Shown here one piece after another: positions 6,582-64,000 of a stretch of 64,000 bases of DNA. The position numbers were made by a program, and so were the translations under genes. Position 1 is the first letter of the stretch. Every line of letters starts with the position of its first letter. Origin of the DNA: Halichondria panicea. Taxonomy: Eukaryota; Porifera; Demospongiae; Suberitida; Halichondriidae. The notes under the pieces were generated by a model, which was not told where the DNA came from, ran no database searches, and saw only the letters and a program-made list of their open reading frames with translations. Location: positions 4,007,963-4,071,962 of the forward strand of contig NC_087382.1 in the NCBI RefSeq assembly GCF_963675165.1. Reading direction: 5' to 3'.

Positions 6582-6932
6582 CTTTATTATTTGCCCCAAA
6601 CGCAATTACTGTAGATCTCGATATTAACCTGTTGTTATCTCAAGTGCTTGCTCATATATATAGTTTAAGTGGTTTGCGAGCCGTGCATGGTCATGTAGCT
6701 ATAGGGGGTGATTTATCTATTGGAGAATAATTATGTACAGGTTGCAGGTTATGAATGAACATCCTGTATGAAAACATAATTTAAGTTGACTTCCCACTGG
6801 CTGCAAGCACTCTGTGCTGCATGTTGATCAATAAGGGTGCATGTGATACAGTACTAGCAGACATCTCTTTAAAATATAGCTGTATATCAAGCAAGATAGT
6901 TGCTGGCCATAAACTACTGCATACTGCTGAGA
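6582..6932. other. intergenic between receptor copies B and C
   Basis: Holds the shared upstream block of the receptor family and nothing else that I can support. Confidence 0.5.
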
Positions 6933-8690: not shown

Positions 8691-9386
8691 CTTCAATTTA
8701 CCCCTAACGCAATTGCTATTTATAAACTATACTTTTGTTATCTCAACTCTCAAGTGCTTTCTTGTAGTTTAAGTGGTTTGGGGGGACTGTGGTCACGTAG
8801 CTGTAGGTATCCTGATAGTGGGCTCATGCAAAACTAGAAAGTTAAAAGCACTAAGAGAATGCAGTGATGTCATTGTAATGATGTCATGAGATCATTGTAA
8901 TTACTGTAATGGGTGTAATCACTGTAATGGGTGTCCTTGGAATGTGCAGGCGCATGTTGCCCCACTAAACGAAACGCCATTAAAACGAAACAGCAGTCAA
9001 TAATGGGCGTGGCACCTAACTTTATCCTTAATCCTAACCTAGCCCATTATTTGTTTCCGGTTGTTTCATTTTAGTGACGTTGCGTTTTAGTGAGACTACA
9101 TGCAGGCGCAGGTCATGAATTAACATCTTGTACACACATGTGACAGTTACGAAGATTTTTATCTTTGAACGACTTCCCTCTTTTAAAATTGTAACTCACA
9201 ATTTTGAAAAAGAGAAGTCGCTGAGGTTGCAAGCATCTATCCTGCATGCATGCATATGTACATGTATATCATCATTGTTTATGGAATGCAAGGAGGATGC
9301 ATGTGACCAGTATACTATTATAGTAGCTGTTAACAAGACAGTAGTAAGTTGCTGGCTATTCATTGAACTACTGTATGCTGCTGAGA
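8691..9386. other. intergenic between receptor copies C and D
   Basis: Carries the shared receptor upstream block, a run of GTAATG/GTCATTG repeats (8860-8940) and one small inverted-repeat element (8955-9100). No gene seen. Confidence 0.5.
8955..9100. mobile_element. 146-bp MITE with 10-bp target duplication
   Basis: The imperfect inverted ends (TGTTGCCCCACTAAACG and the complement of CGTTTTAGTGAGACTACA) are flanked by the direct repeat TGCAGGCGCA at 8945-8954 and 9101-9110. A 9-10-bp target duplication suggests a Mutator-like origin. The family name is not certain. Confidence 0.75.
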
Positions 9387-21200: not shown

Positions 21201-23478
21201 TCATAATCTACTTCCACTATTCATACCCAGAATTTCTGTGGCTTTGTATGTACTTCGTCTGTCTGACTGCCTAGACGATCATCCACTGGTTGAATACTAC
21301 AAGGACAACAAGCCAGTTGGTGAAGGTTTCAAGTCACATCTCTCAGTTCTGGATAACTTCAAGTATCTCGTGCAGTCAATTCAATCTCACAGTGAAAACT
21401 GCAAGTTGGTATGTATTGGTACTCACAAAGACCATCAATTTGATTGCAAGGAAAGATTATCTGACAAGAATAAAACTTTGTTGAACTTTATGGAGAAGGA
21501 TATTACTAAGAATTTGACCATGTTTTCTAATTTGGGCAAGAAAGAAATCATATTTCCTGTGGATTGCAAGCATTGCGATTCTGACAGTGAGAAAGTGGCA
21601 AAGACAATTCGTGAATGTATACAATCTCAAGAGCTGAATAATAATGAAATCCTAGTTCCTTTATGGTGGTTTGTTTTGGAAATTGTAGTCGAGAAAGTTT
21701 CAAACGATCATAACAGAAAAGTTTTAAGCAAGACCGAATGTGTAGAATTTGCAAAAGCATTTCAGAATTTTCACGAAGATGCACTTGTTGAAGCCTTAAA
21801 ATTCTTCCATGAGCATCACATATTTCACTACTATCCTGCCATTCTACCAAATGTGGTATTCTGTGATACTCAAGTGCTTCTTGATAAAGTAACAGAGCTT
21901 GTCGAGCATGCTGCATATGTGCGAGGAAGTAATGATCCAGCATCTGGATGTGGAAACTGGTTAGATTTTATTAACAAAGGGATTATTACAATTGAAATTT
22001 TATCTGACAAATTTTTTGAAAAGCATTATGTTGATGAACTCTTTGCACCCACGGATCTCATCGAAATATTCAAGCATTTACTGATAGCCGCCCCATTTAA
22101 TTTGGGGCAAGATAAGCGTTTTTATATGCCCTCACTTCTATCTTTGCTCCCAGTCAATGACAAACGGGCTGATTTGCTTAAGACCGGTTTAAACCCACTC
22201 GTTTTACAATTCAAAAGCAACTGGCAGTACTGTGGAGTGTTTTGCTGTCTCCAAGTGTACTTAATTAAAGAATGTGAATGGGATATTGAAATAGAGGATC
22301 ACCAAATAGAGGATCACCAGCAGCTGAGTAGAAACTTTGTACAATTTATTCATCGTAAAGAAGATTGTTTTATCACGCTAATTGATGAGCTTTCATTCCT
22401 CGAAATTTATTCTAGTAGTGATCGAAAAGAAATGTTGTCGTTGATAAGTGAAAATATTCGTTCAGGTCTTCAATCGGCATACAAAGCCCTCAAATACACG
22501 TATGAGGATCCTGAAGATGCATTTTTGTGTCCTCATAAATTTCCCGATTCTTCAACTAAAACAAGTCACCAAACCCCCCACCCAGCTTGTGTTCTGGCTC
22601 AAGGAACTGTTATGAGGTGTACTAAATTCAAAAAGATGACGTATAAGCTAGAAGACGGTCATAAAAATTGGCTCTCTGCTCGTTACAAACTGGAAGGTAA
22701 GACCATGTATATATAGTATAGTAAATATTCTATAAAGGCACATACAGTATATACTCTACATCGAGAGACTTACGTACGTGTGAATGTAGGTTTGTCAATA
22801 TTAATGTACGTATATAGTACATGCAGTGTTGGACGTCAAATTATCTGTTGATGTGCATGAGGATGATCAAGGGGATGAAAATCAACTCGGCACTAACAAC
22901 TTGCAAGAAATTCTCTCTGAATTAATGGATGCCATTAATGAATGGTTTAATTTGGGCCTCGCTTTAGGGATTCAAGGTCCCACACTTAAGGATATAGAAT
23001 CTAATGAAAAGTACAACAGAGATCGTTTGCGTGAAATGCTGGTCCACTGGTTGCGAACTTCACCTTCTCGTACATGGCGTGACATTTGCAATGGCCTCAG
23101 AAGTAACCTTGTCAAACACTACATTCTTGCGGATAAAATTGAGAAGAAATACAACAATGGTAAATGTGATCGTGTAAAGTTTACTATTATAGCCTAACAC
23201 CATCATGCAGGTCAGCTATGTTGGAAGCAAAGAAAAAGTTGGTCTAATAATGCGTGACTGTGTTCGTATGTTGAAACTTTCTTTTTACTCACTGACTTGC
23301 TTCCCATGCAGGTGACTCGTCCCGACCACCGGGCCGTCATCCCCCTATCACTGGTGAGAAGAGAGAGGCCACTGAACACACTGAGCAAGGTGAGACTGTC
23401 GGTTGTTGGTTGGTCTATTTTACTGGTAAGTGTCTCCATGCAGTTCTCCCCAAGAAACCTCGGTCAGAGCAGCAGTGA
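15220..23478 (+). CDS. ankyrin-Roc-COR-death domain protein with one premature stop
   Basis: The exons follow in phase: a first visible exon ending at 15472 (its 5' limit and the ATG are not resolved), 15899-16000, 19862-19963, 20244-20369, 20576-22696, 22827-23159, 23312-23478. Ankyrin repeats (LLEQGANPN, PVHEACKKGNLEITKALVSG, TPLHFACWSGRKDIVQWLVE) come first, then a Lys/Glu-rich linker. A Roc GTPase follows with G1 GMAGTGKTS (20671), G3 DSGGQPHF (21178) and G4 THKD (21421), then a COR-like region, and a death domain in the 22827 exon. This is the order of DAPK1 without its kinase. TAA at 20944-20946 interrupts the big exon, yet the frame is open for 370 bases before it and 1,750 after. It may be a fresh nonsense mutation, a population variant or a sequence error. 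Likely a GTP-controlled death-domain scaffold if expressed. Confidence 0.7.
16023..16190. mobile_element. MITE-like element with CACTGTTAAAAATG end
   Basis: The left end CACTGTTAAAAATG follows TA. The right end CACTTTAAACAGTG is an imperfect inverted match. The interior repeats AGTGCTAT and GGTGCTAT motifs on both strands. Related to the piece ending at 19,616. Confidence 0.5.
17341..17889. repeat. 37-bp minisatellite, about 15 copies
   Basis: Each unit starts TTGGGCTTTGTGGGC and ends CAGTCTGATATG. Units differ at a few positions, mainly the CAGCTGTC versus CACTTGTC variant in the middle, with no unique spacers between units, so this is not a CRISPR array. The last unit decays at GTCAGTTAGATGTATG. 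It lies inside the long intron. Confidence 0.95.
18091..18490 (+). other. two exon-like segments of unknown origin in the long intron
   Basis: 18091-18217 follows TTTCATGCAG and ends AAAG|GTGC. 18392-18490 follows TACCTATAG and ends AATG|GTAA. Joined, both read open in one frame (42 and 33 codons, phase 1 at each junction), with GSWSR and YGSWSKT in the products. The phases do not fit the surrounding ankyrin gene and no start exon is seen. Could be a fossil gene or chance. Confidence 0.25.
19320..19616. mobile_element. fragment related to the 16,023 element
   Basis: The right end (GGTGTTACAATAGCACC...TTTTTAACAGTG followed by TA) is the inverted counterpart of the left end at 16,023. The interior has repeated AGTGTTTTAATAACAC-like units. 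The left boundary is not clear. Confidence 0.4.
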
Positions 23479-24096: not shown

Positions 24097-25833
24097 ATGA
24101 GTGTCTTTGTATTGTGTATGAGCTGCCTGTGTCTATGGCTGGGGAAGGTGAGTGGTATAATAGTCAGTAGCTGCAGTTGAGAGTCCCAATGCTTGCAGCT
24201 CAGTGTACTGGTGTCTGCAGACTATGTGGTACAAGTGGAGATGCTCTCCTACAGTCATCCATCCAACACACGCTCAGACGGCCGATGTTGTGATTCAATC
24301 AATCGTGAACCATGTGACGGATGGGAGCGCTGTGACACATACTTCATCCACTGCCTGAGGCCACGTGCCAGTACTACTACTGTGTGTCCCAATAATGATA
24401 CCTGATTTACTGCAGTCAGTACCAATATCGTGGACGGGGCAACCATTGATTTCTCACAACCTACTGTACTAGGACTCTCTAACCCATTCTATCTGACTGG
24501 AATATCGACAGCCTGGGAGGTAATTTAATGATATGCTGTATAGCAATTTAATATCTCTTGTGATTGCAGGGAGCTCAGCTTTACATACAAGTGCTTGATT
24601 TTGATACCTTTTCTTCAGATGATACTCTTGTAAGGTATCGATTTGATCTAAGTTTCTCAGTGGGATCGACAACCACATTATCTGCCTCAGATACCGGGGC
24701 TAGTATCGCTGTGAGTACTACTGTGTTATGTGCTCCTTTTTTCATTGGAAGCAGTTGTGACATCTTCAATCACTGTGAGTCCAATGCTGTCACATGCAGT
24801 GACAGAGGAATGTGTGTGAATAAAATGGACAGTTTCACTTGCAACTGTAACCCTCCCTACTTTGGTGCTAACTGTGAGGATCAAAACTTTTGCTACAACA
24901 GAAACTGCAACGAAAGAGGAACATGTACTAATGACTTTGATTCCTACATCTGTGTCTGCAATGCTGGCTATACTGGTGCTGATTGTGAGGTGGATATTGA
25001 TGAGTGCTTGCTAATGGAGACAGTGTGCAGTGGCCATGGTAACTGCTCTCATGGAATAGCCACCTTCACCTGCTCATGTGATCCTGGCTACACTGGACAG
25101 AGGTGTGAGACCAACATTGATGAATGTGTGAATAGGAACTGCAGCGGAAATGGTGTGTGTGTGGATGGTGTCAACTCGTTCAGTTGTGAGTGTATGTCTG
25201 GCTTCGCTGGAGAGATGTGCAGTGTGGTGACACAAGGTAAACACTAATTTCCTTAACACACTTGACAGCTTATTTAGATGCTTGGTGAATGCTGCTGTAT
25301 AATTCTTCTTCAGCATGTTTGTTTTCTATATATACTTTAGACGTGAGATCAGATGATGCAACAGCTACTATAGCAGGTGGAGTGGTGGGTGGACTAGTAG
25401 GCGTTGTGATGATTGCAGTCATAGTCATTGTCATAGTGCTTATCATTAAGAACAAGAAAGAGTCTTCAAAATACAACGGTAAGGCTATATATCTCAGTGT
25501 GTGTGTACTACACTAATGTAACTCATTTCTTTTTAGTGGAGGAGGAACTGCCAACAATGATATACCATGTCAGAACAACATGGTGTACGGTGTGTGAGAT
25601 GAACACAACTCAACCTCAAACCAACACCCTCCCTACTGGCCTACCAATCCTCTCTACAAGAGCAAGAGTATGGCTACCCATTGTGTTCCCTCCCACCAGT
25701 ATACGAAAGTGTGGAGGCGAGGGACAAGAAACTCATGATAAATGTAAATGTTAGCTATGCAACCGTTGCCGAGCATGAGGATGGACTGGGACAGACTGGT
25801 GACATCTATGATGATGTCAACACGAGGCAATAG
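24097..25833 (+). pseudogene. receptor copy E: Delta-like EGF membrane protein, disabled
   Basis: Same five-exon plan as copy C: 24097-24147 signal exon, 24199-24519 MNNL exon, 24570-25236 DSL-half plus four EGF repeats, 25341-25478 transmembrane exon, last exon from 25537. In the MNNL exon the family codon GGA reads TGA at 24403-24405, stopping the protein after about 85 residues. The EGF and transmembrane exons remain open. In the last exon, relative to copy C, the start is 10 bases shorter and two further 2-base losses occur near 25,594 and 25,650. The first pair compensates, but the third puts the VSYATV and DIYDDV motifs out of frame. A recently inactivated type-II-tail copy. Confidence 0.8.
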
Positions 25834-26167
25834 CTTTATTATTTGTCCCAAACGCAATTACTGTAGATCTCGATATTAACCTGTTGTTATCTCAAGTGCT
25901 TACTCGTTTAAGTGGTTTGCGAGCCGTGCATGGTCATGTTGCTAGGGGGTGATTCATCTATTGGGGAATAATTATGTACAGGATGCAGGTTATTAATGAA
26001 CATCCTGTACGAAAACATGACTTCCCACTGGCTGCAAGCACTCTGTGCATCATGTTGATTAATAAGGGTGTATGTGATACAGTACTAGCAGACATCTCTT
26101 TAAATTATAGCTGTATATCAAGCAAGATAGTTGCTGGCCATAAACTACTGCATGCATGCTGCTGAGA
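25834..26167. other. intergenic between receptor copies E and F
   Basis: Very similar to 6582-6932, with the shared upstream block. Nothing else seen. Confidence 0.5.
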
Positions 26168-29100
26168 ATGAGTGTCCTTGTATTGTGTATGAGCTGCCTG
26201 TGTCTATGGCTGGGGAAGGTGAGTGGTATAATAGTCAGTAGCTGCAGTTGAGAGTCCCAATGCTTGCAGCTCAGTGTACTGGTGTCTGCAGACTATGTGG
26301 TGCAAGTGAAGATGGTCTCCTACAGTCATCCATCCAACACACTCCCTGGTGGCCGGCGATGTTGTGATTCACCATGGGAATTCAACAGTGTAGTACCATG
26401 TAACGAAGGGGAACGCTGTGACACCTACTTCATCTACTGCCTGAGGCCACATGCCAGTACTGCTACACCTTGTCCCAGTAATGAGCCCGGATGTACTGCA
26501 GTCAGTAACTATATCGTGGATGGGGCAGACATTGATTTCACACAACCTACTGTACTAGGACTCTCCAATCCATTCAATCTGACTGGAATATCGACAGCCT
26601 GGGAGGTAAGATACTGTAGACTATTTCAATATACTATTGCTTGTGATTGCAGGGAGCTCAGCTTTACATACAAGTGCTTGATTTTGATACCTATTCATCA
26701 TATGATACTATTGTAAGGTATCGATTTAATCTGAATCCCTCCGTGTCAGTGGGATCAACAAGTACACTATATATATCTGCCTCAAGTACCGCTACTGCAA
26801 GATTTAGTGCTACTGTGTTGTGTGCTCCTTTCTACATTGGAAGCAGTTGTGATATCTTTGATTACTATCACTGTGAGTCCATATGCAGAGAACTGTGTGT
26901 GGATGAAATAGACAGTTTCACTTGCAACTGTAACCATCCTTACTTTGGTGCAAACTGCGAGCATCAAAACTTTTGCTACAACAGAATTTGCAACGAAAGA
27001 GGAACATGTACTAATAACCTTGATTCCTACACCTGTGTCTGCAATGCTGGCTATACTGGTGTTGATTGTGAAGACATTGATGAATGTGAGGGGCAGAGCT
27101 GCAGTGGAAATGGTTTGTGTATGGATGAGGTCAACTCTTACACCTGTGTCTGCAATGCTGGCTATACCTTGGTATAAAAAGTCACAATTCATGAATATAA
27201 TTAAACCTCTATAATGACGGTATAGGCATCAATATTATGGTTACATTCCATTCCAATAAGTGTACGTACGCATGGAGTGTACCATATAATTATGTCACTA
27301 CTGTAACAACTGTAACACCAGTCACCACTGTAACAACTGTAACACATGTCACCACTGTAACAACTGTAACATCTGTCAACATTGTAACAACTGTAACAAT
27401 TGTAACAACTGTAACAACTGTAACACTTGTCACCACTGTAACGCTAGTCACCACTGTAACAACTGTAACGTCTGTCAGCACTGTAACAACTGTAACACAT
27501 GTCACCACTGTAACAACTGTAACACTTGTCACCACTGTAACAACTGTAACACCAGTCACAACTGTAACACTTGTCACCACTGTAACAACTGCAACACCAG
27601 TCACAACTGTAACACTTGTCACCACTGTAACAACTGTAACACCAATCACAACTGTAACAACTGTAACACCAGTCACAATTGTAACAACTGTAACACCAGT
27701 CACAACTGTAACAACTGTAACACTAGTCACAACTGTAACAACTGTAACGCTAGTCACCACTGTAACAAGTGTAACATCTGTCAACACTGTAACAACTGTA
27801 ACACATGTCACCAATGCAACACATGTCACCACTGTAACAACTGTAACACCAGTCACCACTGTAACAACTGTAACACTTGTCACCACTGTAACAACTGTAA
27901 CACTTGTCACCACTGTAACACATGTCACCACTGTAACGCTAGTCACCACTGTAACAACTGTAACACTAGTCACAACTGTAACAACTGTAACACTTGTCAC
28001 TACTGTAACAACTGTAACACATGTCACCAATGCAACACATGTCACCACTGTAACGCTAGTCACCACTGTAACAACTGTAACACATGTCACCACTGTAACA
28101 ACTGTAACATCTGTCAGCACTGTAACAATTGTAACAACTGTAACAACTGTAACACCAGTCACCACTGTAACAACTGTAACGCTAGCCACCACTGTAACAA
28201 CTGTAACACTTGTCACCACTGTAACACTAGTCACAACTGTAACAACTGTAACACCAGTCACCACTGTAACAACTGTAACACTTGTCACCACTGTAACACT
28301 AGTCACAACTGTAACAACTGTAACACTTGTCACAACTGTAACACCAGTCACCACTGTAACAACTGTAACACCAGTCACCACTGTAACAACTGTAACACTT
28401 GTCACCACTGTAACACTAGTCACAACTGTAACAACTGTAACACTTGTCACCACTGTAACAACTGTAACATGTCACCAATGCAACACATGTCACCACTGTA
28501 ACGCTAGTCACCAATGCAACACACGTCACCACTGTAACAACTGTAACACCAGCCACCACTGTAACACCAGTCACAACTGTAACAACTGTAGCACTTGTAA
28601 CACTAGTCACAAATGTAACAACTGTCAACTGTAACACATGTCACCAATGCAACACATGTCACCACTGTAACAACTGTAACACTAGTCACCACTGTAACAA
28701 CTGTAACATCTGTCACCACTGTAACAACTGTAACACATGTCACCAATGCAACACACGTCACTACTGTAACACTTTAGTCTGGCACCACTATAGACTATAA
28801 GTACTATAAGAACTAGTGTTACAGTTGTTGCATGTGTTACAGTGGTGACAAGTGTTACAGTTGTGACTAGCGTTACAGATGTTACAGTGGTGGCATGTTG
28901 TTACAGTTGTGACTAGTGTTACAGTTGTTACAGTGGTGACTGGTGTTACAGTTGTTACAGTTGTGACTAGTGTTACAGTTGTTACAGTTGTGACAAGTGT
29001 TACAGTTGTTACAGTGGTGACTAGCGTTACAGTTGTTACAGTTGTGACTGGTGTTACAGTTGTTACAGTGGTGACTAGTGTTACAGTTGTTACAGTGGTG

Positions 29101-32100
29101 ACAAGTGTTACAATTGTTACAGTGGTGACTAGTGTTACAGTGGTGACAAGTGTTACAGTTGTTACAGTGGTGACTAGCGTTACAGTTGTTACAGTTGTGA
29201 CTGGTGTTACAGTTGTTACAGTGGTGACAAGTGTTACAGTTGTTACAGTTGTGACTAGTGTTACAGTTGTTACAGTGGTGACAAGTGTTACAGTTGTTAC
29301 AGTGGTGACTAGCGTTACAGTTGTTACAGTTGTGACTGGTGTTACAGTTGTTAGAGTGGTGACTAGCGTTACAGTTGTTACAGTTGTTACAGTGGTGACT
29401 AGCGTTACAGTTGTTACAGTTGTGACAAGTGTTACAGTTATTACAGTGGTGACTAGCATTACAGTTGTTACAGTTGTGACTAGTGTTACAGTTGTTACAG
29501 TGGTGACTAGCGTTACAGTTGTTACAGTGGTGACTAGTGTTACAGTTGTTACAGTGGTGACAAGTGTTACAATTGTTACAGTGGTGACTAGTGTTACAGT
29601 GGTGACAAGTGTTACAGTTGTTACAGTGGTGACTAGCGTTACAGTTGTTACAGTTGTGACAAGTGTTACAGTCGTTACAGTGGTGACATGTGTTACAGTT
29701 GTTATAGCTGTGACTAGTGTTACAGTGGTGACAAGTGTTACAGTTGTTACAGTGGTGACAAGTGTTACAGTTGTTACAGTGGTGACTAGCGTTACAGTTG
29801 TTACAGTGGTGACTAGTGTTACAGTTGTTACAGTTGTGACAAGTGTTACAGTCGTTACAGTGGTGACATGTGTTACAGTTGTTATAGCTGTGACTAGTGT
29901 TACAGTGGTGACAAGTGTTACAATTGTTACAGTGGTGACTAGTGTTACAGTGGTGACAAGTGTTACAGTTGTTACAGTGGTGACTAGCGTTACAGTTGTT
30001 ACAGTGGTGACTAGCGTTACAGTTGTTACAGTTGTGACTAGTGTTACAGTTGTTACAGTGGTGACAAGTGTTATAATTGTTACAGTGGTGACTAGTGTTA
30101 CAGTGGTGACAAGTGTTACAGTTGTTACAGTGGTGACTGGTGTTACAGTTGTTACAGTGGTGACTAGCGTTACAGTTGTTACAGTTGTGACTAGTGTTAC
30201 AGTTGTTAGAGTGGTGACAAGTGTTACAGTTGTTACAGTGGTGACTAGCGTTACAGTTGTTACAGTTGTGACAAGTGTTACAGTTGTTACAGTAGTCAAG
30301 TACGTGTTACAGTTGTTACAGTTGTGACATGTGTTACAGTTGTTACAGCTGTGACTAGTGTTACAGTTGTTACAGTAGTCAAGTGTTACAGTTGTTACAG
30401 TTGTGACTAGTGTTACAGTGGTGACAAGTGTTACAGTTGTTACAGTGGTGACTAGCGTTACAGTTGTTACAGTTGTTATAGTGGTGACAAGTGTTACAGT
30501 TGTGACTAGTGTTACAGTTGTTACTGTGGTGACAAGTGTTACAGTTGTTACAGTTGTTACAGTGGTGACAAGTGTTACCAGTTGTTACAGTGGTGACTAG
30601 CGTTACAGTGGTGACAAGTGTTACAGTTGTTACAGTTGTTACAGTTGTTACAGTGGTGAGTTGTGACTAGTGTTACAGTGGTGACAAGTGTTACAGTTGT
30701 TACAGTTGTTACAGTGGTGAGTTGTGACTAGTGTTACAGTGGTGACAAGTGTTACAGTTGTTACAGTGGTGATACGTGTTACAGTGGTGACTGGTGTTAC
30801 AGTTGTTGCAGTTGTTACAGTGGTGATTGATGTTACATTAGTTACAGTAGTGACATAATTATATGTTACACTTAATTATGTGGAATGGAATGTAACCATA
30901 ATATTGATGTCATTATAGAGGCTTAATTATATTCATGAATTGTGACTTTTTATACCAAGGTATAGCCGCAATGCTGGCTATACTGGTGCTGATTGTGAGG
31001 TGGATATTGATGAGTGCTTGCTAATGGAGACAGTGTGCAGTGGCCATGGTAACTGCTCTCAAGGAATAGCCACTTTCACCTGCTCATGTGATCTTGGCTA
31101 CACTGGACAGAATTGTGAGACCGACATTGATGATTGTGTGAATAGGAACTGCAGTGGAAACCGTGTGTGTGTGGATGGTGTCAACTCGTTCAGTTGTGAG
31201 TGTGTGTCTGGCTTCACTGGAAAGATGTGCAACACTGCAGGTATTGTAGTTCAAACTAATTCTGTTATAATTATCTGTAGTGTTATAGGAGGTGGTCCAG
31301 AGGGTATCACTCTGATAGGAGGAGTGGTGGGAGGTCTCCTAGTGCTGATGCTGATACTCCTGCTCCTGATAGTGGTCGTGGTGGTGTGTGTACGCATAGC
31401 TCATGATCAGGGGAAGACCATTCAAGACACTCAGTTGCAGGGTAAGCTGTTTGTGCATGTGCCTAACATTGAAGTAGCTATACATGCACACATGCACATG
31501 CACTGTTTACATTTCACTAGTGTATAGTTTACTTTACAATGTGATCTGAGTGTTTATGTTTCAGTATGCTCGAGCTCATGCATGAAACGATTTACTAAGT
31601 TTGCTTGTCTTAATTCAGCTGGAGACAACCCAGTGTATGGGATTCCTGAGAACAGAACAAACACCATCACTTCGGAAACAGCAGAGTTTGACAACCCAAT
31701 ATATGGAAGCCGAGAATCATTCAACGATGTAGAACTGGTCAATCCAATTTATGGAGATGCAGATTTCGAAGATGTACCTTCTGAATTGGCCCCTGCAATA
31801 TCAGACTATGAGACACCTGTAGTACGCAGAGCTCATGATCAGGGGAAGACCAATCAAGACACTCAGTTGCAAGGTAATAATTAAGTTGTTTGTGTACCTA
31901 ACACATTGAAGTAGCTATACACACAATCATGCACGTCACACTGTTTACATTTCACTAGTGTATATTGTTTACTTGTGATTCTTGTGATTGGAGTGTTTAT
32001 ATATGCCTGAGCTCATGAATAGATTTGCTGTTGTTTTCCACAGGAGACACCATTTCCTATATTCCTGGAGACACCAAAGATGTACCTTATGAATTGGCCC

Positions 32101-53147: not shown

Positions 53148-53862
53148 CTGTGACGGGTGGATGGATTCAAAATGAGCAAGAATCAACAATCTATCAGTCT
53201 TACGTATATACGTGTTGCTACTAGGCAGCCAGGCACAGCTATATAACTACATGTAAGCTATACGTATGCACTGACAATAATAGCCTCTTTAAGCCGCTCG
53301 CATACATAGCATTAGTTTGTATCGTGCATATAACTTTTATCACTATAGTATACTGTGACATGATATTATACATGCATGTATGCAAATAAAACAAGAATAG
53401 TCAGTATCATGTGTAAGCATTTTATAGTCTCATGTATACGTATACATGTACGTATTGTATAGAAGTTAGTCGAGTACAATATTGTTGAATAGGGAACGTT
53501 TGATTTGATTGTGAATTATAACCATATTAGTGTGCAAGGGCACATCATGTGCGTACACAGATCTTACTAACCATTAACATAACAATAGTTCCAGGTAGTT
53601 GGAAACAATTGGATTCAAAGAAACCAAAATTACAAGCATGCTCGTCGGGAAAGAGGTAGCTAGAGGCTCACTGTCAATAACCCACAACAACCCACAACAA
53701 GGGTACATGTATAGCAAGAGTAATAGAGTATACAGACAAACATATGGATAAAGGGAACCTAAGCCCGAGGTACCATACACAGAATCTATACAGCAGCCAA
53801 CATGCTTAATTATATACACTATACGTGTATTTGTCTGTACAACATTGCGTCCTCTTGCATGT
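53148..53862. other. dynein intron start and upstream region of peptide gene 1
   Basis: No dynein exon is seen upstream of 53147. The sequence recurs before peptide genes 2-4, including GGGAACGTTTGATTTGATTG and a CATATTAGTGTGC block. The palindrome-like TACACTATACGTGTAT lies about 40 bp before the TATA box. Confidence 0.6.
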
Positions 53863-53863
53863 C

Positions 53864-53870
53864 TATAAAA
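53864..53870 (+). promoter_or_regulatory. TATA box of peptide gene 1
   Basis: TATAAAA lies 79 bp before the ATG, in a block conserved in all four copies (GTCTATAAAAACACGACACG). Transcription would start about 30 bp on, giving a 5' leader of roughly 55 bases and excluding the upstream in-frame ATGs. Confidence 0.65.
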
Positions 53871-53948
53871 ACACGACACGACTGCCACAGAATAACCATT
53901 CCTCAAACTCATCCAACTACTTACAACCGACTCAAGAAACGCTCAAAC

Positions 53949-54323
53949 ATGAAGGTGGCTATTCTCGTCATGGCATTTGTTGCCCTCACAGCCAGTGTGG
54001 CTTACGCTGCTCCTACTGAGAATGAAGATGCTGAAATTGAGGCATTTCTGAACAAACTGATGGAGCAAGAAGAAGCCTCTGAGCAAGACGACCATGCTGC
54101 TCAAATGGAGTCCTTCCTTTCCCAACTCCAAGATGAAGATGATGACGGCGAGGAAGCAGACCTTCAGGAGTTCTTTGCTCGAGAGCAGATCCGAGCTAAG
54201 GTGCAAGGATGGAGGCGCATAGCCAGGAGTGTGGTAAGAGGAGTGAAGAAGTACGGACCAACAGCACTAAAGTACGGAGTGAAGTATGGACCAAGTGTAG
54301 TAAGGGCACTCGGTCGTCGTTAA
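53949..54323 (+). CDS. peptide gene 1: secreted acidic-basic precursor, antimicrobial-like
   Basis: Intronless, 124 residues. Residues 1-20 (MKVAILVMAFVALTASVAYA) are a textbook signal peptide with an AYA cleavage site. Residues 21 to about 83 form an acidic pro-region (about 22 Asp/Glu against three basic residues) with two imperfect repeats, EAFLNKL and ESFLSQL. The last 41 residues have 12 basic and no acidic residues: GWRRIARSVVRGVKKYG has basic residues spaced as on an amphipathic helix, then come GP/KYG motifs and the end ALGRR. Gly-Arg-Arg is a C-terminal amidation signal after carboxypeptidase trimming. Acidic pro-piece plus cationic amidated peptide is the design of styelin- and cecropin-like antimicrobial precursors; I recognise no specific family. 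The start is set by the TATA box and signal peptide. Confidence 0.8.
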   Translation: MKVAILVMAFVALTASVAYAAPTENEDAEIEAFLNKLMEQEEASEQDDHAAQMESFLSQLQDEDDDGEEADLQEFFAREQIRAKVQGWRRIARSVVRGVKKYGPTALKYGVKYGPSVVRALGRR

Positions 54324-54569
54324 GTGCCAGTGTTTCAGTGGTAACGTACTGTCGAAAACTGAGAAACTCATGTAGAAATAGACTAGTGTAGAAGAGTAGA
54401 ACTTAGAAATTTGATGCAAATGCAAAAATTGAAATGAGAATTTGTGTTTTCACACGATGTATGTAGTAGGAGTACTATTAGCGTACACTAGGAAACTATC
54501 TAACTGCAGGGAACCTAGTCATAGGGTAGTATACGCAGAATATAGCAGCTAAAGTAATAATACGTGTAT

Positions 54570-54700
54570 GGCCTTCCTCCGGCATCTGGGCCATGATATC
54601 AGGGGAGGAGAAGATGGGCTCGAGATAAAGCCAGGTGGCCTGCACTTTGAGCCATTCATCGAGGATCTCTTGGACCAATAGCAACTTGCCCTCCCACTCT
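54570..54700 (-). pseudogene. fossil dynein linker exon fragment 1
   Basis: A 131-bp copy of the first part of the live exon 52961-53147 ([20 protein letters not shown] on to PEEG). It stops sharply at GGCCTTCCTC, where the live exon goes on with [10 protein letters not shown]. No donor follows, so it cannot be spliced like the original. Confidence 0.85.
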
Positions 54701-55104
54701 CTGTGGCAGGTAGATGGATTCAAAATGAGTATTTTACAAAAATCCACGATCTACATGATCAGTCTCGTTTTTATAGTTACGTATACGTGTTGCTACTAGG
54801 CCAGGCACACTCAGCTATAACTACATGTAAGCTATATACGTCTGCACTGACAATAATATATATACCATGCACGTAGAAAATTTCGTGGTGTTTTTAATTT
54901 TGCGTTTTTCGTGGGTGGCTGCAGAACCTGAAAATTAGAACCCGTGGAAGGCTTTGTATGCCCTCATAATAAAGACAAAATATTGAATTGCACAAAATTT
55001 TACACCCGAGAAATATTCCAACCGTATGGTAGCCTCTTTAGCAGCTCACATAAATAGCTGTATTACAAGTGCATAACTTTCTACTAAGTGCTACAATATA
55101 TATA

Positions 55105-55827
55105 CAGGGATGAAAATAATAGCCGGCCACCGGCCAAAATCTGAGCATATAGCCTGCTTGGCCGTCTATTGTACTGCATGAACTACTGGACAACAACTGC
55201 GCATGCTCAGAAAATTAATTATCTGCCATGTGTGCAAAAAAGGCGAATCAGCAATAATTTGTAGAGCTACTAAATCTATCTACATACATGCATGTATCTA
55301 CGTAGCTAGTTCAAGAAAACTGAGTGCATCCCAGTGCCATTGATGCAAGCAGTTCAAAGCAAGAACCTATCCAAAGAGACAAGAAGTGGCAGTGCTCTTA
55401 TGAGAAGTATCATCAGTCCTGACTCCATGACTGGCTAGACCAGAAAGACATGTTTCTACTCTTTGGTGCTTTTGAGTTCAATAGACAGTCAGTGGACTTT
55501 AGACTGGTTTAGCTCGAACTTAGAGTCTGGTTTTATGAGTTGTGCTTTATACTACTATAATAATTTATTATTATTACGATTCTAAACATCAAAACAAAAA
55601 ATCAATAAGACATAATTATGATTATGACGACAGGCTATCAGGTCCATTCATTGGTGGCAGGTGAACATTGAAAATGACTTGACACAATGATAAAATACTT
55701 ATTTTCACCCCTGCGGACATGGAACGTCTGGCTGTGAGTGCCAGATCATCATTTGCTGATGGCCGGTCAACATTGAAAATGACCTGACAAAGTTCAGCCA
55801 GTGATAAAATACTTATTTTCATCCCTG
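55105..55827. mobile_element. inverted-repeat element, CAGGGATGAAAATAA ends, short form
   Basis: 15-bp perfect terminal inverted repeats CAGGGATGAAAATAA. The interior has a tandem of two TTGAAAATGAC(T/C)TGACA units near the right end. CAGGG-type ends recall hAT elements, but the target duplication is unclear in the AT-rich flanks. Relative to later units it lacks about 460 bp in the middle. Confidence 0.65.
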
Positions 55828-56421
55828 ATATAATTATACGTGTTATTGTACATGTATGCAGATAAAGACAAAACAGAACATAATAGTCAGTATACGTATG
55901 TCAAGTGCAGGCATTTTTATAGTCCATATGCATATAAGTATTGTATAGAAGTACAAAAGATAGTTGGATAGGAAAAGTTTGATTGTGAACTATAACCATA
56001 TTAGTGTCCAAGCTAGGGCACATCATGTGTGTACACAGATCTTACTAACCATTAACATAACAATAGTTCCAGGTAGTTTATTAACACCAGACGGTAGCAA
56101 AAAGAAACTTTGTGTACAGCCTAGCACACATGAAACATTCAGTAAACAGGTAGTTGGAAACAATTGGATTCAAAGAAACCAAAATTACAAGCATGCTTGT
56201 CGGGCAGGAGGTAGCTAGAGGCTCATTGTGTCAGGACTCACAACAACGGTGCATGTATAGCAATAGTAATAGAGTATACAGACAAACATATGGAACCTAT
56301 TGTTGATGAAGGGAACCTAAGCTTGAGGTACCATACACAGAATCTATACAGCAGCCAACATGCATAATTATATACACTATACGTGTATTTGTCTGTACAA
56401 CATTGCGTCCTCTTGCATGTC

Positions 56422-56428
56422 TATAAAA
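56422..56428 (+). promoter_or_regulatory. TATA box of peptide gene 2
   Basis: TATAAAA, same position and context as in gene 1. Confidence 0.65.
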
Positions 56429-56506
56429 ACACGACACGACTGCCACAGAATAACCATTCCTCAAACTCATCCAACTACTTACAACCGACTCAAGAAACGC
56501 TCAAAC

Positions 56507-56881
56507 ATGAAGGTGGCTATTCTCGTCATGGCATTTGTTGCCCTCACAGCCAGTGTGGCTTACACTGCTCCTACTGAGAATGAAGATGCTGAAATTGAGG
56601 CATTTGTAAACAAACTGATGGAGCAAGAAGAAGCCTCTGAGCAAGACGACCATGCTGCTCAAATGGAGTCCTTCCTTGCCCAACTCCAAGATGAAGATGA
56701 TGACGGCGAGGAAGCAGCCCTTCAGGAGTTCTTTGCTCGAGAGCAGATCCTAGCTAAGGTGCAAGGATGGAGGCGCATAGCCAGGAGTGTGGCAAGAGGA
56801 GTGAAGAAGTACGGACCAACAGCACTAAAGTACGGAGTGAAGTATGGACCAAGTGTAGTAAGGGCACTCGGTCGTCGTTAA
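56507..56881 (+). CDS. peptide gene 2: secreted acidic-basic precursor
   Basis: 124 residues, same layout as gene 1. Differences include Ala to Thr at the signal cleavage site (AYT), Leu to Val in EAFVNKL, Asp to Ala before LQEFF, Arg to Leu in EQILAKV and Val to Ala in RSVARGV. The C-terminus again ends SVVRALGRR. All six cited changes alter the protein, so the copies are not simply being homogenised. The AYT site may slow signal peptidase. Function inferred as for gene 1. Confidence 0.8.
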   Translation: MKVAILVMAFVALTASVAYTAPTENEDAEIEAFVNKLMEQEEASEQDDHAAQMESFLAQLQDEDDDGEEAALQEFFAREQILAKVQGWRRIARSVARGVKKYGPTALKYGVKYGPSVVRALGRR

Positions 56882-57010
56882 GTGCCAGTGTTTCAGTGGA
56901 AACGTACTGTCGAGAACTGAGAAACTCATGTAGAAATAGACTAGTGTAGAAGAGTAGAACTTAGAAATTTGATGCAAATGCAAAAATTGAAATGAGAATT
57001 TGTGTTTTCA

Positions 57011-57313
<303 letters not shown>

Positions 57314-57670
57314 CTACATGATCAGTCTCATTTTTATAGTTACGTATACGTGTTGCTACTAGGCCAGGCACACTCAGCTATAACTACATGTAAGCTATAT
57401 ACGTCTGCACTGACAATAATATATATACCGTGCACGTAGAAAATTTTGTGGTGTTTTTAATTTCGCGTTTTTCGTGGGTGGCTGCAGAACCTGAAAATTA
57501 GAACCCGTGGAAGGCTTTGTATGCCCTCATAATAAAGACAAAAATTAATATTGAATTGCACAAAATTTTACACCCGAGAAATATTCCAACCGTATGGTAG
57601 CCTCTTTAGCAGCTCGCATAAATAGCTGTATTACAAGTGCATAACTTTCTATCAAGTGCTACAATATATA

Positions 57671-58855
57671 CAGGAATGAAAATAACAGCCGGCCACCGGC
57701 CAAAATCTGAGCATATAGCCTGCTTGGCCGTCTATTGTACTGCATGAACTACTGGACAACAACTGCGCATGCTCAGAAAATTAATTATCTGCCATGTGTG
57801 CAAAAAAGGCGAATCAGCAATAATTTGTAGAGCTACTAGATTTATCTACGTACATGCATGTATCTACGTAGCTAGTTCAAGAAAACTGAGTGCATCCCAG
57901 TGCCATTGATGCAAGCAGTTCAAAGCAAGAACCTATCCAAAGAGACAAGAAGTGGCAGTGCTCTTATGAGAAGTATTATCAGTCCTGACTCCATGACTGG
58001 CTACACCAGAAAGACATGTTTCTACTCTTTGGTGCTTTTGAGTTTAATAGACAGTCAGTGGACTCTAGACTGGTTTAGCTCGAACTTAGAGTCTGGTTTT
58101 ATGAGTTGTGCTTTATACTACTTTGTTGCATTTTGAGTGGGCAGATCAAAGGAAACACTGTGCCAATATCTGCCATATGGCATAGGTCAAGCCTTGAACT
58201 GTGCCACTATCTAGATACTGGCATAGTATGGCTGAAGTTACCTAAAGCCCACCGTCCACCCAGTAACCTGAAACGGTCCCTTTTATAGTAATAACACTGT
58301 TAAACAGATTCAGTGGTAGGCATGCAGAAAATGTTTTTCATGCGTCTGGTGCATTCCACAGCCACCACAAGTAGTTGAAACTAGTTGTCCTATAAAAGGA
58401 GTGATGTGTACACGGAAAGGAATGCACAAGGAATGCAACAAATCAGTTGCTACACAGCTCACTCGTGCGCACATGGAATATATTGGCTCAGTACCCTTTG
58501 CCCTCGAGGCCTGCGGCCCTCGGGCCTAAGTCACTACTGAGCCAATAATTATATCCCATGTGGCACTCGTGCATGTGTCACAACTATAACATAATATTAT
58601 TATTACGATTATAAACATCAAAACAAAAATCAATAAGACATAATTATGATTATGACGACAGGCTATCAGGTCCTTTCATTGGTGGCAGGTAAACATTGAA
58701 AATGACTTGACACAATGATAAAATACTTATTTTCACCCCTGCGGATATGTGACGTCTGGCTGTGAGTGCCAGGTCATCATTTGCTGATGGCCGGTCAACA
58801 TTGAAAATGACCTGACAAAGTTCAGCCAGTGATAAAATACTTATTTTCATCCCTG
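57671..58855. mobile_element. inverted-repeat element, long form, 1,185 bp
   Basis: Starts CAGGAATGAAAATAA and ends TTATTTTCATCCCTG. The extra middle part holds a hairpin with arms TATTGGCTCAGTA and TACTGAGCCAATA around a GC-rich CCTCGAGGCCTGCGG loop. No transposase frame. Non-autonomous. Confidence 0.65.
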
Positions 58856-58907
58856 ATATAATTATACGTGTTATTGTACATGTATGCAGATAAAGACAAA
58901 ACAGAAC

Positions 58908-58945
58908 ATTCTTGCTCATTTTGGATTCAAAATGAGCAAGAATCA
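58908..58945. repeat. inverted junction of duplicated intron sequence
   Basis: TTCTTGCTCATTTTG and CAAAATGAGCAAGAA face each other across a 4-base loop. The right half is the sequence that follows the live dynein exon at 53,160. A nearly identical junction lies at 62,048-62,084. Marks a breakpoint of the rearrangement that built the larger repeat units. Confidence 0.6.
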
Positions 58946-59594
58946 ACAAACTACCAGTCTTACGTATATAGGTATTGCTACTATAGGCAGCCAGGCACAG
59001 CTATATAACTACATGTAAGCTATACGTATGCACTGACAATAATAGCCTCTTTAGCCGCTCGCATAAATACCATTAGTTTGTATCGTGCATATAACTTTTA
59101 TCACTATGGTATACTGTGACATGATATATTGTATATGCATGCAAATAAAACAAGAATAGTCAGTATCATGTGTAAGCATTTTATAGTCTCATGTATACGT
59201 ATACATGTACGTATTGTATAGAAGTTAGTCGAGTACAAAAGTCTAAAATAGGGAACGTTTGATTTGATTGTGAATTATAACCATATTAGTGTGCCAAGGG
59301 CACATCATGTGCGTACACAGATCTTACTAATCATTAACATAACAATAGTTCCAGGTAGTTGGAAACAATTGGATTCAAAGAAACCAAAATTACAAGCAGG
59401 GAAAGAGGTAGCTAGAGGCTCACTGTCAATAACAAGGGTACATGTATAGCAATAGTAATAGACTATACAGACACACATATGGATGAAGGGAACCTAAGCC
59501 TGAGGTACCATACACAGAATCTATATAGCAGCCAACATGCATAATTATATACACTATACGTGTATTTGTCTGTACAACATTGCATCCTCTTGTC

Positions 59595-59601
59595 TATAAA
59601 A
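59595..59601 (+). promoter_or_regulatory. TATA box of peptide gene 3
   Basis: TATAAAA. The preceding GCAT of the other copies is missing here. Confidence 0.65.
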
Positions 59602-59679
59602 ACACGACACGACTGCCACAGAATAACCATTCCTCAAACTCATCCAACTACTTACAACCGACTCAAGAAACGCTCAAAC

Positions 59680-60036
59680 ATGAAGGTGGCTATTCTCGTC
59701 CTGGCATTTGTTGCCCTCACAGGCAGTGTGGCTTACGCTGCTCCTACTGAGAATGAAGATGCTGAAATTGAGGCATTTCTAAACAAACTGATGGAGCAAG
59801 AAGAAGCCTCTGAGCAAGACGACCATGCTGCTCAAATGGAGTCCTTCCTTGCCCAACTCCAAGATGAAGACGATGACAGCGAGGAAGCAGACCTTCAGGA
59901 GTTCTTTGCTCGAGAGCAGATTCCAGCTAAGGTGCAAGGATGGAGGCGCATAGCCAGGAAGGTGGCAAGAGGAGTGAAGAAGTATGGACCAACAGCACTA
60001 AAGTACGGAGTGAAGTATGGACTCGGTCGTCGTTAA
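59680..60036 (+). CDS. peptide gene 3: secreted acidic-basic precursor, short C-terminus
   Basis: 118 residues. Signal MKVAILVLAFVALTGSVAYA, acidic pro-region with DDDSEEAD, then EQIPAKVQGWRRIARKVARG and KKYGPTALKYGVKYGLGRR. Compared with genes 1 and 2, 18 bases are absent in frame (the PSVVRA segment), leaving a 35-residue basic region, still with 12 basic residues and still ending in GRR. RKV in place of RSV adds a charge. Ile-Pro before Ala-Lys may affect pro-piece cleavage. Confidence 0.8.
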   Translation: MKVAILVLAFVALTGSVAYAAPTENEDAEIEAFLNKLMEQEEASEQDDHAAQMESFLAQLQDEDDDSEEADLQEFFAREQIPAKVQGWRRIARKVARGVKKYGPTALKYGVKYGLGRR

Positions 60037-60285
60037 GTGCCAGTGTTTCAGTGGAAACGTACTGTCGAGAACTGAGAAATTCATGTAGAAATAGACTAGT
60101 GTAGAAGGGTAGAACTTAGAAATTTGATGCAATTGCAAAAATTGAAATGAGAATTTGTGTTTTCACACGATGTATGTAAGTGTAGTAGGAGTACTAGCGT
60201 ACACTAGGAAACTATCTAACTGCAGGGAACCTAGTCATAGGGTAGTATACGCAGAATATAGCAGCTAAAGTAATAATACGTGTAT

Positions 60286-60416
60286 GGCCTTCCTCCGGCA
60301 TCTGGGCCATGATATCAGGGGAGGAGAAGATGGGCTCGAGATAGAGCCAGGTGGCCTGCACTTTGAGCCATTCATCGAGGATCTCTTGGACCAATAGCAA
60401 CCTGCCCTCCCACTCT
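60286..60416 (-). pseudogene. fossil dynein linker exon fragment 3
   Basis: Third 131-bp fragment with the same ends. Lys to Arg in EWEGRLLL. Confidence 0.85.
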
Positions 60417-60811
60417 CTGTGGCAGGTAGATGGATTCAAAATGAGAATTTTACAAAAATCCACAATCTACATGATCAGTCTCGTTTTTATAGTTACGTAT
60501 ACGTGTTGCTACTAGGCCAGGCACACTCAGCTATAACTACATGTAAGCTATATACGTCTGCACTGACAATAATATATATACCGTGCACGTAGAAAATTTC
60601 GTGGTGTTTTTTATTTTTCGTGGGTGGCTGCAGAACCTGAAAATTAGAACTCGTGGAAGGCTTCGTATGCCCTCATAATAAAGACAAAATATTGAATTGC
60701 ACAAAATTTTACACCCGAGAAATATTCCAACCGTATGGTAGCCTCTTTAGCAGCTTGCATAAATAGCTGTATTACAAGTGCATAACTTTCTATTAAGTGC
60801 TACAATATATA

Positions 60812-61996
60812 CAGGGATGAAAATAACAGCCGGCCACCGGCCAAAATCTGAGCATATAGCCTGCTTGGCCGTCTATTGTACTGCATGAACTACTGGACAA
60901 CAACTGCGCATGCTCAGAAAATTAATTATCTGCCATGTGTGCAAAAAAGGCGAATCAGCAATAATTTGTAGAGCTACTAGATCTATCTACGTACATGCAT
61001 GTATCTACGTAGCTAGTTCAAGAAAATTGAGTGCATCCCAGTGCCATTGATGCAAGCAGTTCAAAGCAAGAACCTATCCAAAGAGACAAGAAGTGGCAGT
61101 GCTCTTATGAGAAGTATCATCAGTCCTGACTCCATGACTGGCTAGACCAGAAAGACATGTTTCTACTCTTTGGTGCTTTTGAGTTTAATAGACAGTCAGT
61201 GGACTCTAGACTGCTTTAGCTCGAACTTAGAGTCTGGTTTTATGAGTTGTGCTTTATACTACTTTGTTGTATTTTAAGTGGGCAGATCAAAGGAAACATT
61301 GTGCCAATATCTGCCATATGGCACAGGTCAAGCCTTGAACTGTGCCACTATCTAGATACTGGCATAGTATGGCTGAAGTTACCTAAAGCCCACCGTCCAC
61401 CCAGTAACCTGAAACGGTCCCTTTTATAGTATAACACTGTTAAACAGATTCAGTGGTAGGCATGCAGAAAACGTTTTTCATGCGTCTGGTGCATTCCACA
61501 GCCACCACAAGTAGTTGAAACTAGTTGTCCTATAAAAGGAGTGATGTGTACACGGAAAGGAATGCACAAGGAATGCAACAAATCAGTTGCTACACAGCTC
61601 ACTCGTGCGCACATGGAATATATTGGCTCAGTACCCTTTGCCCTCGAGGCCTGCGGCCCTCGGGCCTAAGTCACTACTGAGCCAATATATCCCATGTGGC
61701 ACTCGTGCATGTGTCACAACTATAACATAATATTATTATTACGATTATAAACATCAAAACAAAAATCAATAAGACATAATTATGATTATGACGACAGGCT
61801 ATCAGGTCCTTTCATTGGTGGCAGGTGAACATTGAAAATGACTTGACACAATGATAAAATACTTATTTTCACCCCTGCGGATATGTGACGTCTGGCTGTG
61901 AGTGCCAGGTCATCATTAATTTTGCTGATGGCCGGTCAACATTGAAAATGACCTGACAAAGTTCAGCCAGTGATAAAATACTTATTTTCATCCCTG
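60812..61996. mobile_element. inverted-repeat element, long form, second copy
   Basis: Same length and nearly the same sequence as 57,671-58,855, with CAGGGATGAAAATAA ends. Its position in the unit is the same, so it was copied with the unit and did not insert afresh. Confidence 0.65.
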
Positions 61997-62773
61997 ATAT
62001 AATTATACGTGTTATTGTACATGTATGCAGATAAAGACAAAACAGAACATTCTTGCTCATTTTGTATCCAAAATGAGCAAGAATCAACAAACTATCAGTC
62101 TTACGTATATAGGTATTGCTCTATAGGCAGCCAGGCACAGCTATAATTATAACTACATGTAAGCTATACGTATGCACTGACAATTAGCCTCTTTAGCCGT
62201 TCGCATAAATACCATTAGTTTGTATCGTGCATATAACTTTTATCACTATGGTATACTGTGACATGATATATTGTATATGCATGCAAATAAAACAAGAATA
62301 GTCAGTATCATGTGTAAGCATTTTATAGTCTCATGTATACGTATACATGTACGTATTGTATAGAAGTTAGTCGAGTACAAAAGTCTAAAATAATTATAGT
62401 TGAATAGGGAACGTTTGATTTGATTGTGAATTATAACCATATTAGTGTGCAAGGGCACATCATGTGCGTACACAGATCTTACTAATCATTAACATAACAA
62501 TAGTTCCAGGTAGTTGGAAACAATTGGATTCAAAGAAACCAAAATTACAAGCATGCTTGTCGGGCAAGAGGTAGCTAGATGCTCATTGTGTCAGGACTCA
62601 CAACAACGGTGCATGTATAGCAATAGTAATAGAGTATACAGACAAACATATGGATAAAGGGAACCTAAGCTTGAGGTACCATACACAGAATCTATACAGC
62701 AGCCAACATGCATAATTATATACACTATACGTGCATGTACTTGTCTGTACAACATTGCGTCCTCTTGCATGTC

Positions 62774-62780
62774 TATAAAA
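62774..62780 (+). promoter_or_regulatory. TATA box of peptide gene 4
   Basis: TATAAAA, conserved context as in genes 1 and 2. Confidence 0.65.
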
Positions 62781-62858
62781 ACACGACACGACTGCCACAG
62801 AATAACCATTCCTCAAACTCATCCAACTACTTACAACCGACTCAAGAAACGCTCAAAC

Positions 62859-63215
62859 ATGAAGGTGGCTATTCTCGTCATGGCATTTGTTGCCCTCACA
62901 GCCAGTGTGGCTTACGCTGCTCCTACTGAGAATGAAGATGCTGAAATTGAGGCATTTCTGAACAAACTGATGGAGCAAGAAGAAGCCTCTGAGCAAGACG
63001 ACCATGCTGCTCAAATGGAGTCCTTCCTTGCCCAACTCCAAGATGAAGACGATGACGGCGAGGAAGCAGACCTTCAGGAGTTCTTTGCTCGAGAGCAGAT
63101 TCCAGCTAAGGTGCAAGGATGGAGGCGCATAGCCAGGAAGGTGGCAAGAGGAGTGAAGAAGTACGGACCAACAGCACTAAAGTACGGAGTGAAGTATGGA
63201 CTCGGTCGTCGTTAA
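62859..63215 (+). CDS. peptide gene 4: secreted acidic-basic precursor, short C-terminus
   Basis: 118 residues, the same basic region as gene 3 (RKVARG, KYGLGRR end), but signal and pro-region closer to gene 1 (VMAFVALTASVAYA, DDDGEEAD). The mix suggests unequal exchange or conversion within the array. Otherwise as gene 1. Confidence 0.8.
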   Translation: MKVAILVMAFVALTASVAYAAPTENEDAEIEAFLNKLMEQEEASEQDDHAAQMESFLAQLQDEDDDGEEADLQEFFAREQIPAKVQGWRRIARKVARGVKKYGPTALKYGVKYGLGRR

Positions 63216-63464
63216 GTGCCAGTGTTTCAGTGGAAACGTACTGTCGAGAACTGAGAAACTCATGTAGAAATAGACTAGTGTAGAAGAGTAGAACTTAGAA
63301 ATTTGATGCAATTGCAAAAATTGAAATGAGAATTTGTGTTTTCACACGATGTATGTAAGTGTAGTAGGAGTACTAGCGTACACTAAGAAACTATCTAACT
63401 GCAGGGAACCTAGTCACAGGGTAGTATACGCAGAATATAGCAGCTAAAGTAATAATACGTGTAT

Positions 63465-63595
63465 GGCCTTCCTCCGGCATCTGGGCCATGATATCAGGGG
63501 AGGAGAAGATGGGCTCGAGATAGAGCCAGGTGGCCTGCACTTTGAGCCATTCATCGAGGATTTCTTGGACCAATAGCAACCTGCCCTCCCACTCT
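63465..63595 (-). pseudogene. fossil dynein linker exon fragment 4
   Basis: Fourth fragment, opening a fifth repeat unit. The window ends about 400 bp later, just before the spot where the CAGGG element sits in the other units, so the array probably continues. Confidence 0.85.
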
Positions 63596-64000
63596 CTGTG
63601 GCAGGTAGATGGATTCAAAATGAGAATTTTACAAAAATCCACAATCTACATGATCAGTCTCGTTTTTATAGTTACGTATACGTGTTGCTACTAGGCCAGG
63701 CACACTCAGCTATAACTACATGCATGTAAGCTATATACGTCTGCACTGACAATAATTATATATACCGTGCACGCAGAAAATTTCGTGGTGTTTTTAATTT
63801 TGCGTTTTTCGTGGGTGGCTGCAGAACCTGAAAATTAGAACCCGTGGAAGGCTTTGTATGCCCTCACAATAAAGACAAAATATTGAATTGCACGAAATTT
63901 TACACCCGAGAAATATTCCACCCGTACGGCCTCTTTAGCAGCTCGGATAAATAGCTGTATTACAAGTGCATAACTTTCTACTAAGTGCTACAATATATAT

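Follow-up and report, generated by a model that had tools for sequence, protein, structure and literature searches.

Four tandem precursor genes at the locus

The window, by which we mean the whole 64,000-nucleotide (nt) stretch of the Halichondria panicea genome analysed here (contig NC_087382.1, positions 4,007,963 to 4,071,962), contains four neighbouring intact genes, each consisting of one uninterrupted open reading frame (ORF), encoding precursors of 124, 124, 118 and 118 amino acids. In all four, a TATAWA box starts 85 nt 5' of the ATG. The precursors open with a hydrophobic stretch of about 20 residues that was read by eye as a signal peptide, as were the signal peptides and cleavage sites across the family described below. 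It is followed by a pro-region of 66 residues with a net charge of -18, -18, -19 and -19 in genes 1–4, respectively, and by a basic tail that opens with GW and closes with GRR; together with the terminal RR, the tail has a net charge of +11 in each gene. Neither the pro-regions nor the tails contain Cys. Tandem direct repeats of 2.6–3.2 kb cover the genes and their flanks, with start-to-start spacings of 2558, 3173 and 3179 nt; gapless blocks between repeats are at best 97–100% identical, and others, where the register slips, 61–82%. The features were placed as follows, in window coordinates.

53480..64000 (approximate), + strand: tandem array of 2.56, 3.17 and 3.18 kb units with the four genes, running past the window edge
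53864..53869, + strand: TATA box of gene 1
53949..54323, + strand: gene 1 precursor, 124 amino acids, single ORF
53949..54008, + strand: gene 1 putative signal peptide, residues 1–20 (cleavage site by eye and from the alignment)
54009..54206, + strand: gene 1 acidic pro-region, residues 21–86, net charge -18 (alignment and charge count)
54207..54320, + strand: gene 1 cationic tail GW...ALGRR, presumed to be the mature amidated peptide, with a putative N-terminus
56422..56427, + strand: TATA box of gene 2
56507..56881, + strand: gene 2 precursor, 124 amino acids, single ORF (tail 56765–56878)
59595..59600, + strand: TATA box of gene 3
59680..60036, + strand: gene 3 precursor, 118 amino acids, single ORF (tail 59938–60033, six residues shorter)
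62774..62779, + strand: TATA box of gene 4
62859..63215, + strand: gene 4 precursor, 118 amino acids, single ORF (tail 63117–63212, identical in sequence to the gene 3 tail)

A sequence-only reading of this locus had described four intronless tandem genes with a TATA box, a signal peptide, an acidic pro-region and a basic tail ending in GRR, and the ORFs, repeats and charges confirmed each of these features. The basic regions of 41 and 35 residues that it reported agree with ours if KVQ is taken as their start and the final GRR is included. It had recognised no named family, and likewise no sensible Pfam family was found for two window proteins and ten further members: the former gave nothing past a cut-off among families listed up to E 1, and two of the latter passed a cut-off, with DUF4142 and GET2, in matches that lie mainly over the acidic part and are taken as compositional.

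A larger family with a shared front half and diverse tails

The same reading had spoken of a family of four. The four genes in the window stand, but the family comprises at least 36 genes with very different tails. A protein search of the whole genome (131 Mb, 39 contigs) with a window protein gave 27 matches (E 1.5e-75 for gene 1 against itself and E 2e-71 for the next copy). When divergent members served as queries in three further searches, overlapping sets of 22, 28 and 25 matches were obtained. When a profile built from 20 members was run on the ORFs of the matched stretches, 40 rows were obtained, from which four nested or out-of-frame duplicates were removed to leave 36 members; the genome search scores the best candidates only, so this number is a lower bound. 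Not counted were C5:3244840 (E 8e-4) and the tail-only pieces C6:3924732 and C6:3926503. Thirty-five members lie on contig C6 in three clusters, at 3.890–3.929 Mb (14 members), 4.062–4.099 Mb (18 members, the first four being the window genes) and 4.372–4.378 Mb (three members), and one lies on contig C4 at 0.911 Mb. The next gene of the family, C6:4073392, begins 1.4 kb past the window edge. A TATAWA box at -100 to -45 was present in 31 of the 36 genes, against 3.1 expected and a maximum of 8 in 200 simulations. Pattern matches to the family numbered 130 in prokaryote genomes and 61 in viral contigs, and none of them was confirmed.

Across the family the front half is conserved and the tails are highly divergent. 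When 20 of the 36 members were aligned, most of the signal peptide and several pro-region positions proved invariant or nearly so; the same held for an E-Q pair, the opening Trp of the tail and the final Gly. The tails could be sorted into KKYGPT, WWKKHRIG, Lys-rich amphipathic, one-Cys, (RYY[A/S])n and Arg/Ser-repeat types, and the motif [KR][KR]YGP[TRS] occurs in nine of the 36 members. Exactly one Cys is held by 11 of the 36 tails (e.g., L012:1059-1403) and more than one by none; the single Cys would allow disulfide dimers. Tyr-rich tails with YY repeats were observed at L016:1083-1793, L017:1524-2258 and L017:2950-3822, with the (RYY[A/S])n pattern in the last of these, and the L016 and L017 tails share a conserved C-terminal part resembling KSYGNYGF...YMKSHYP..YRKYL. 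The function of the Tyr-rich tails may differ from that of the helical ones.

The charges of the two halves vary together. With boundaries set by a sequence motif, pro-region and tail charge correlated with rho -0.82 over 33 of the 36 genes (three without a motif boundary were dropped) and -0.92 over 11 subfamily means, both computed over related genes and with lengths uncorrected. This analysis replaced an earlier one with charge-chosen, and hence biased, boundaries (rho -0.84, n = 35). Since the boundary pattern was written to end mostly in Gln, the Gln that precedes the tails is not independent evidence. The helical hydrophobic moment exceeded that of a tail's own shuffles in 26 of 35 tails (uncorrected p < 0.05), including those of all four window genes (p 0.002–0.004); for the gene 1 tail, whose core charge is +9, p was 0.004.

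The divergence of the tails was examined in subfamily A, which consists of nine genes. Pooled synonymous divergence (dS) was 0.04 in the signal peptide, 0.17 in the pro-region and 0.47 in the tail, and the corresponding non-synonymous values (dN) were 0.04, 0.06 and 0.33. Over the 36 pairs of these nine paralogues, the pooled dN/dS ratios (NG86) were 0.89, 0.36 and 0.70, respectively; the ratio of 0.36 in the pro-region demonstrates that its reading frame is constrained and did not arise by chance. Because synonymous divergence jumps in the tail too, the contrast between 5' part and tail would reflect a mosaic with homogenisation of the 5' part, and not only selection on the tails. Comparison of genes 1–4 and C6:4073392 with C6:4081515 revealed differences of 3–5% in the 200 nt upstream and of 32–38% in the 260 nt downstream, and C6:4372015 and C6:4373921 differ by 2.4% upstream and 40% downstream. 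Other cross-type pairs differ by 10–25% upstream.

A chimeric gene was found at C6:3925214. From nt -890 to 306 it is 93% identical to the Tyr-rich gene C6:3927013, and from nt 319 to 462 it is 91% identical to the WWKKHRIG gene C6:3897187, which places the junction 8–13 codons before the tail. At the protein level, its prepro part is 81% like that of a Tyr-rich gene and its tail 80% like that of the WWKKHRIG gene. Another gene, C6:3893716, showed a switch of partner inside the pro-region; its tail and the remaining prepro part both best fit C6:4086719. The direction and mechanism of tail exchange we infer.

Proposed processing, resemblances and probable function

We propose, with a probability of roughly 0.72, that the family encodes precursors of secreted, C-terminally amidated, cationic, membrane-active peptides of host defence. 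The signal peptide would direct the precursor into the secretory pathway, where the acidic pro-region would neutralise the cationic tail and keep it harmless inside the cell. Some protease would then free the tail near its opening (G)W, a carboxypeptidase would remove the RR, and PAM would convert the last Gly to an amide. The released tail would fold on anionic microbial membranes and permeabilise them, the KKYGPT tails presumably in the manner of SMAP-29, with a Gly-Pro hinge between a helix and a second segment. Tandem duplication would diversify the family: the 5' halves would stay alike or be shared between genes, and the tails would diverge and sometimes be swapped.

The evidence for amidation lies in the precursors and in the genome. 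A terminal Gly, alone or followed by Lys/Arg, is present in 32 of the 36 members, all six Tyr-rich genes among them. Near C7:569.4–573.4 kb, the genome encodes a PHM domain that bears an HHMLMFGC motif, and exons of NHL type lie downstream of it. The PHM exon matched peptidylglycine monooxygenase at E 8e-6 versus dopamine beta-hydroxylase at E 0.13, and for the PAL exon the best match was PAM (E 9.6e-5), with unrelated NHL proteins following from E 0.0014. These exon matches indicate that a PHM-PAL enzyme exists that would be able to use the GRR ends. The amidation-ready plan, to which the sequence-only reading had pointed, is supported by the GRR ends and this gene. Proprotein convertase P-domains are also present in the genome, and a trimming carboxypeptidase has been reported in the sponge Amphimedon (PMC6850559; this and the other papers are cited for individual passages). 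Copper monooxygenase exons that do not belong to the PHM-PAL gene were also observed, in clusters at C1:14.86–14.92 Mb and C12:177–183 kb.

Amidated peptides cut from precursors are typical of neuropeptides, and sponge phoenixin precursors with an amidation site have been described (PMC9004410); with a PHM-PAL enzyme in the genome, the tails could accordingly be imagined as signalling peptides that act as amidated receptor ligands. We regard this as very improbable, as each precursor holds a single tail, the window pro-regions lack the dibasic convertase site of proneuropeptides, and the tails are highly charged, strongly amphipathic and strongly divergent within a cluster.

A membrane-active role is suggested by the likeness of some tails to SMAP-29, an antimicrobial cathelicidin peptide of sheep. 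Six tails were used as queries against all PDB sequences, and three of them, all of the KKYGPT type, matched SMAP-29 (1fry) first, at E 6.2e-6 for the gene 3/4 tail, 1.3e-4 for gene 1 and 0.0031 for another KKYGPT tail. The gene 3/4 tail is identical to SMAP-29 at 15 of 22 positions, including GVKKYGPT with Gly-Pro at the same place, and the gene 1 tail at 13 of 22. In a shuffle test run on tails with charge-set boundaries, the SMAP-29 scores of the window tails had z values of 14–15, and 21 of 35 tails reached an uncorrected p < 0.05. SMAP-29 is a potent membrane-permeabilising antibacterial peptide with an N-terminal helix, a hinge and a hydrophobic C-terminus (PMC9692552). Because it derives from a mammalian cathelicidin, which makes common descent implausible, the likeness is presumably due to convergence; nothing relevant to convergence of SMAP-29 with invertebrate peptides was found in the open-licence literature. 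Such a likeness suggests that the space of good membrane peptides may be narrow. For the expectation that these peptides act on microbes or membranes, the amphipathic cationic tails and the SMAP-29 likeness speak in favour; the defence role itself we infer.

SMAP-29 is haemolytic too (PMC9692552), and the same anatomy would serve cytolytic deterrents that use the same membrane mechanism against predators, foulers or adjacent tissue and not against microbes. Predators or competitors would fit the data as targets, as microbes do; this alternative overlaps largely with defence and appears unlikely to us.

The diversity of the tails raises another alternative. The genes with (RYY[A/S])n or Arg/Ser-rich tails have the prepro plan of the rest of the family, and these tails look more like matrix or silaffin-type sequences than like helical antimicrobial peptides. 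The family might, then, encode cationic structural or biomineral proteins whose tails bind silica, collagen or anionic matrix and whose acidic part blocks premature precipitation. The amphipathicity of 26 of the 35 tails, those of the window included, the widespread amidation signals, which extend to the Tyr-rich genes, and the SMAP-29 likeness all argue against this, and for the family as a whole we judge it improbable; members whose tails are rich in Tyr or in Arg/Ser may still serve in matrix or silica. In its passages, a paper on sponge silica (PMC10772126) makes no mention of acidic, lysine, arginine or tyrosine and neither supports nor refutes such a role.

Several observations weigh against the host-defence reading. 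The pro-regions of the four window genes contain no dibasic pair before the tail that would point to a release protease, and only 12 of the 20 aligned members retain the single Arg found in the AREQ stretch. The other three of the six PDB queries matched no antimicrobial peptide. Nine of the 35 tails, including all six Tyr-rich ones, were no more amphipathic than their shuffles, and two tails are Arg/Ser-rich with a C-terminal Cys. The charge correlation bears the limits of relatedness and length given above, and positive selection on the tails is unsupported by the NG86 tail ratio of subfamily A. One ORF, L010:7842-8957, combines the family signal peptide with acidic repeats whose charge is -105, and it has no cationic tail; it may be a damaged gene or a neutraliser that acts on its own.

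The overall plan finds close counterparts among peptides of Hydra and Trichoplax. Trichoplax arminin-like precursors possess a signal peptide, a highly acidic region, a basic C-terminus and a final Gly (PMC12013895), and the antimicrobial peptides of Hydra mostly show a bipartite charge pattern, several paralogues, clustering and restriction to a taxon (PMC10945409). Arminins are described as Hydra-only, with nine paralogues in H. vulgaris AEP, most of them in one locus (PMC10945409). The sponge family has in common with them the signal peptide, an acidic N-terminal part, a basic peptide at the C-terminus and the Gly amidation signal, but differs, in a comparison made by description only, in its larger gene number, its several dissimilar tail types and its tail exchange. 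The likeness to mature SMAP-29 extends to half of the queried tails. Unlike cathelicidins, the precursors have no cathelin pro-domain: the window pro-regions lack Cys, and Pfam listed no cathelicidin up to E 1 for two window proteins or up to 0.05 for ten other members. Frog skin precursors of dermaseptin type combine a conserved signal and acidic pro-region with a hypervariable tail, as here; the window genes differ from these in having longer pro-regions and no KR site before the tail. Styelins and cecropins have a Trp near the N-terminus and are amidated. The tails would resemble both as linear, helical, cationic peptides; cecropin was not among the Pfam families listed for two window proteins and ten other members, and styelins are said to resemble cecropin (PMC10608444). 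The ASABF-type defensin of Suberites would likewise be comparable as a ribosomal sponge antimicrobial peptide (PMC12466427, PMC10608444), but it is Cys-rich with a CS-alpha-beta fold, a Cys content that no tail of the family approaches. Both of these recent reviews name ASABF, one of them among the few well characterised, and in their passages neither names a linear helical sponge family. No sponge relatives were found in the open-licence literature, which cannot prove the family undescribed.

What appears to be new is the modular family with its shared front half and diverse tails; the kind of peptide is already known. We tentatively go further and suggest, with somewhat less than an even chance of being right, that this non-bilaterian animal possesses a combinatorial arsenal in which a uniform intronless prepro cassette, maintained by gene conversion, is combined with interchangeable helical, Trp-rich, Tyr-rich or Arg/Ser-rich cationic tails, recombined near the processing junction, with the charge of the pro-region tuned to the tail and one tail type converged on the helix-hinge of a mammalian cathelicidin. 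With a family of this size, the control that sponge hosts exert on their microbiomes through their own genes would become directly testable, and its natural series of charge-balanced pro-region and tail pairs would offer a ready-made way to learn how cells avoid harm from the peptides that they make.

Other features of the window and genome

The dynein, EGF, ankyrin and Death domains encoded in the window fit an animal. At 2098–11511 and 24564–31884 lie several similar ORFs with EGF repeats, as if from tandem receptor-like genes; two of these were covered by the Pfam search. Positions 20947–23197 hold a large ORF, for which Pfam gave no match at E 0.001, and after it a Death domain.

Among C1 peptidases, no clear silicatein was seen in the seven of 77 matches that were examined. 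Two cathepsin L-type ORFs at C6:4947247 and C6:4950268 (L044 and L045), each in one open frame, have identical domain protein sequences. Another C1 peptidase (L048) has Ser at the catalytic Cys position and Arg at the His position, and is probably inactive.

Repeats of other kinds are also present in the window. A 37-nt tandem repeat spans 17340–17887 (14.8 copies, 94% matches). Two long minisatellites with 27-nt-based units lie between EGF-type exons, at 27293–28774 (units of 27, 45 and 72 nt) and 28816–30855 (units of 18, 27, 54 and 81 nt), and their consensus units look mutually reverse complementary.

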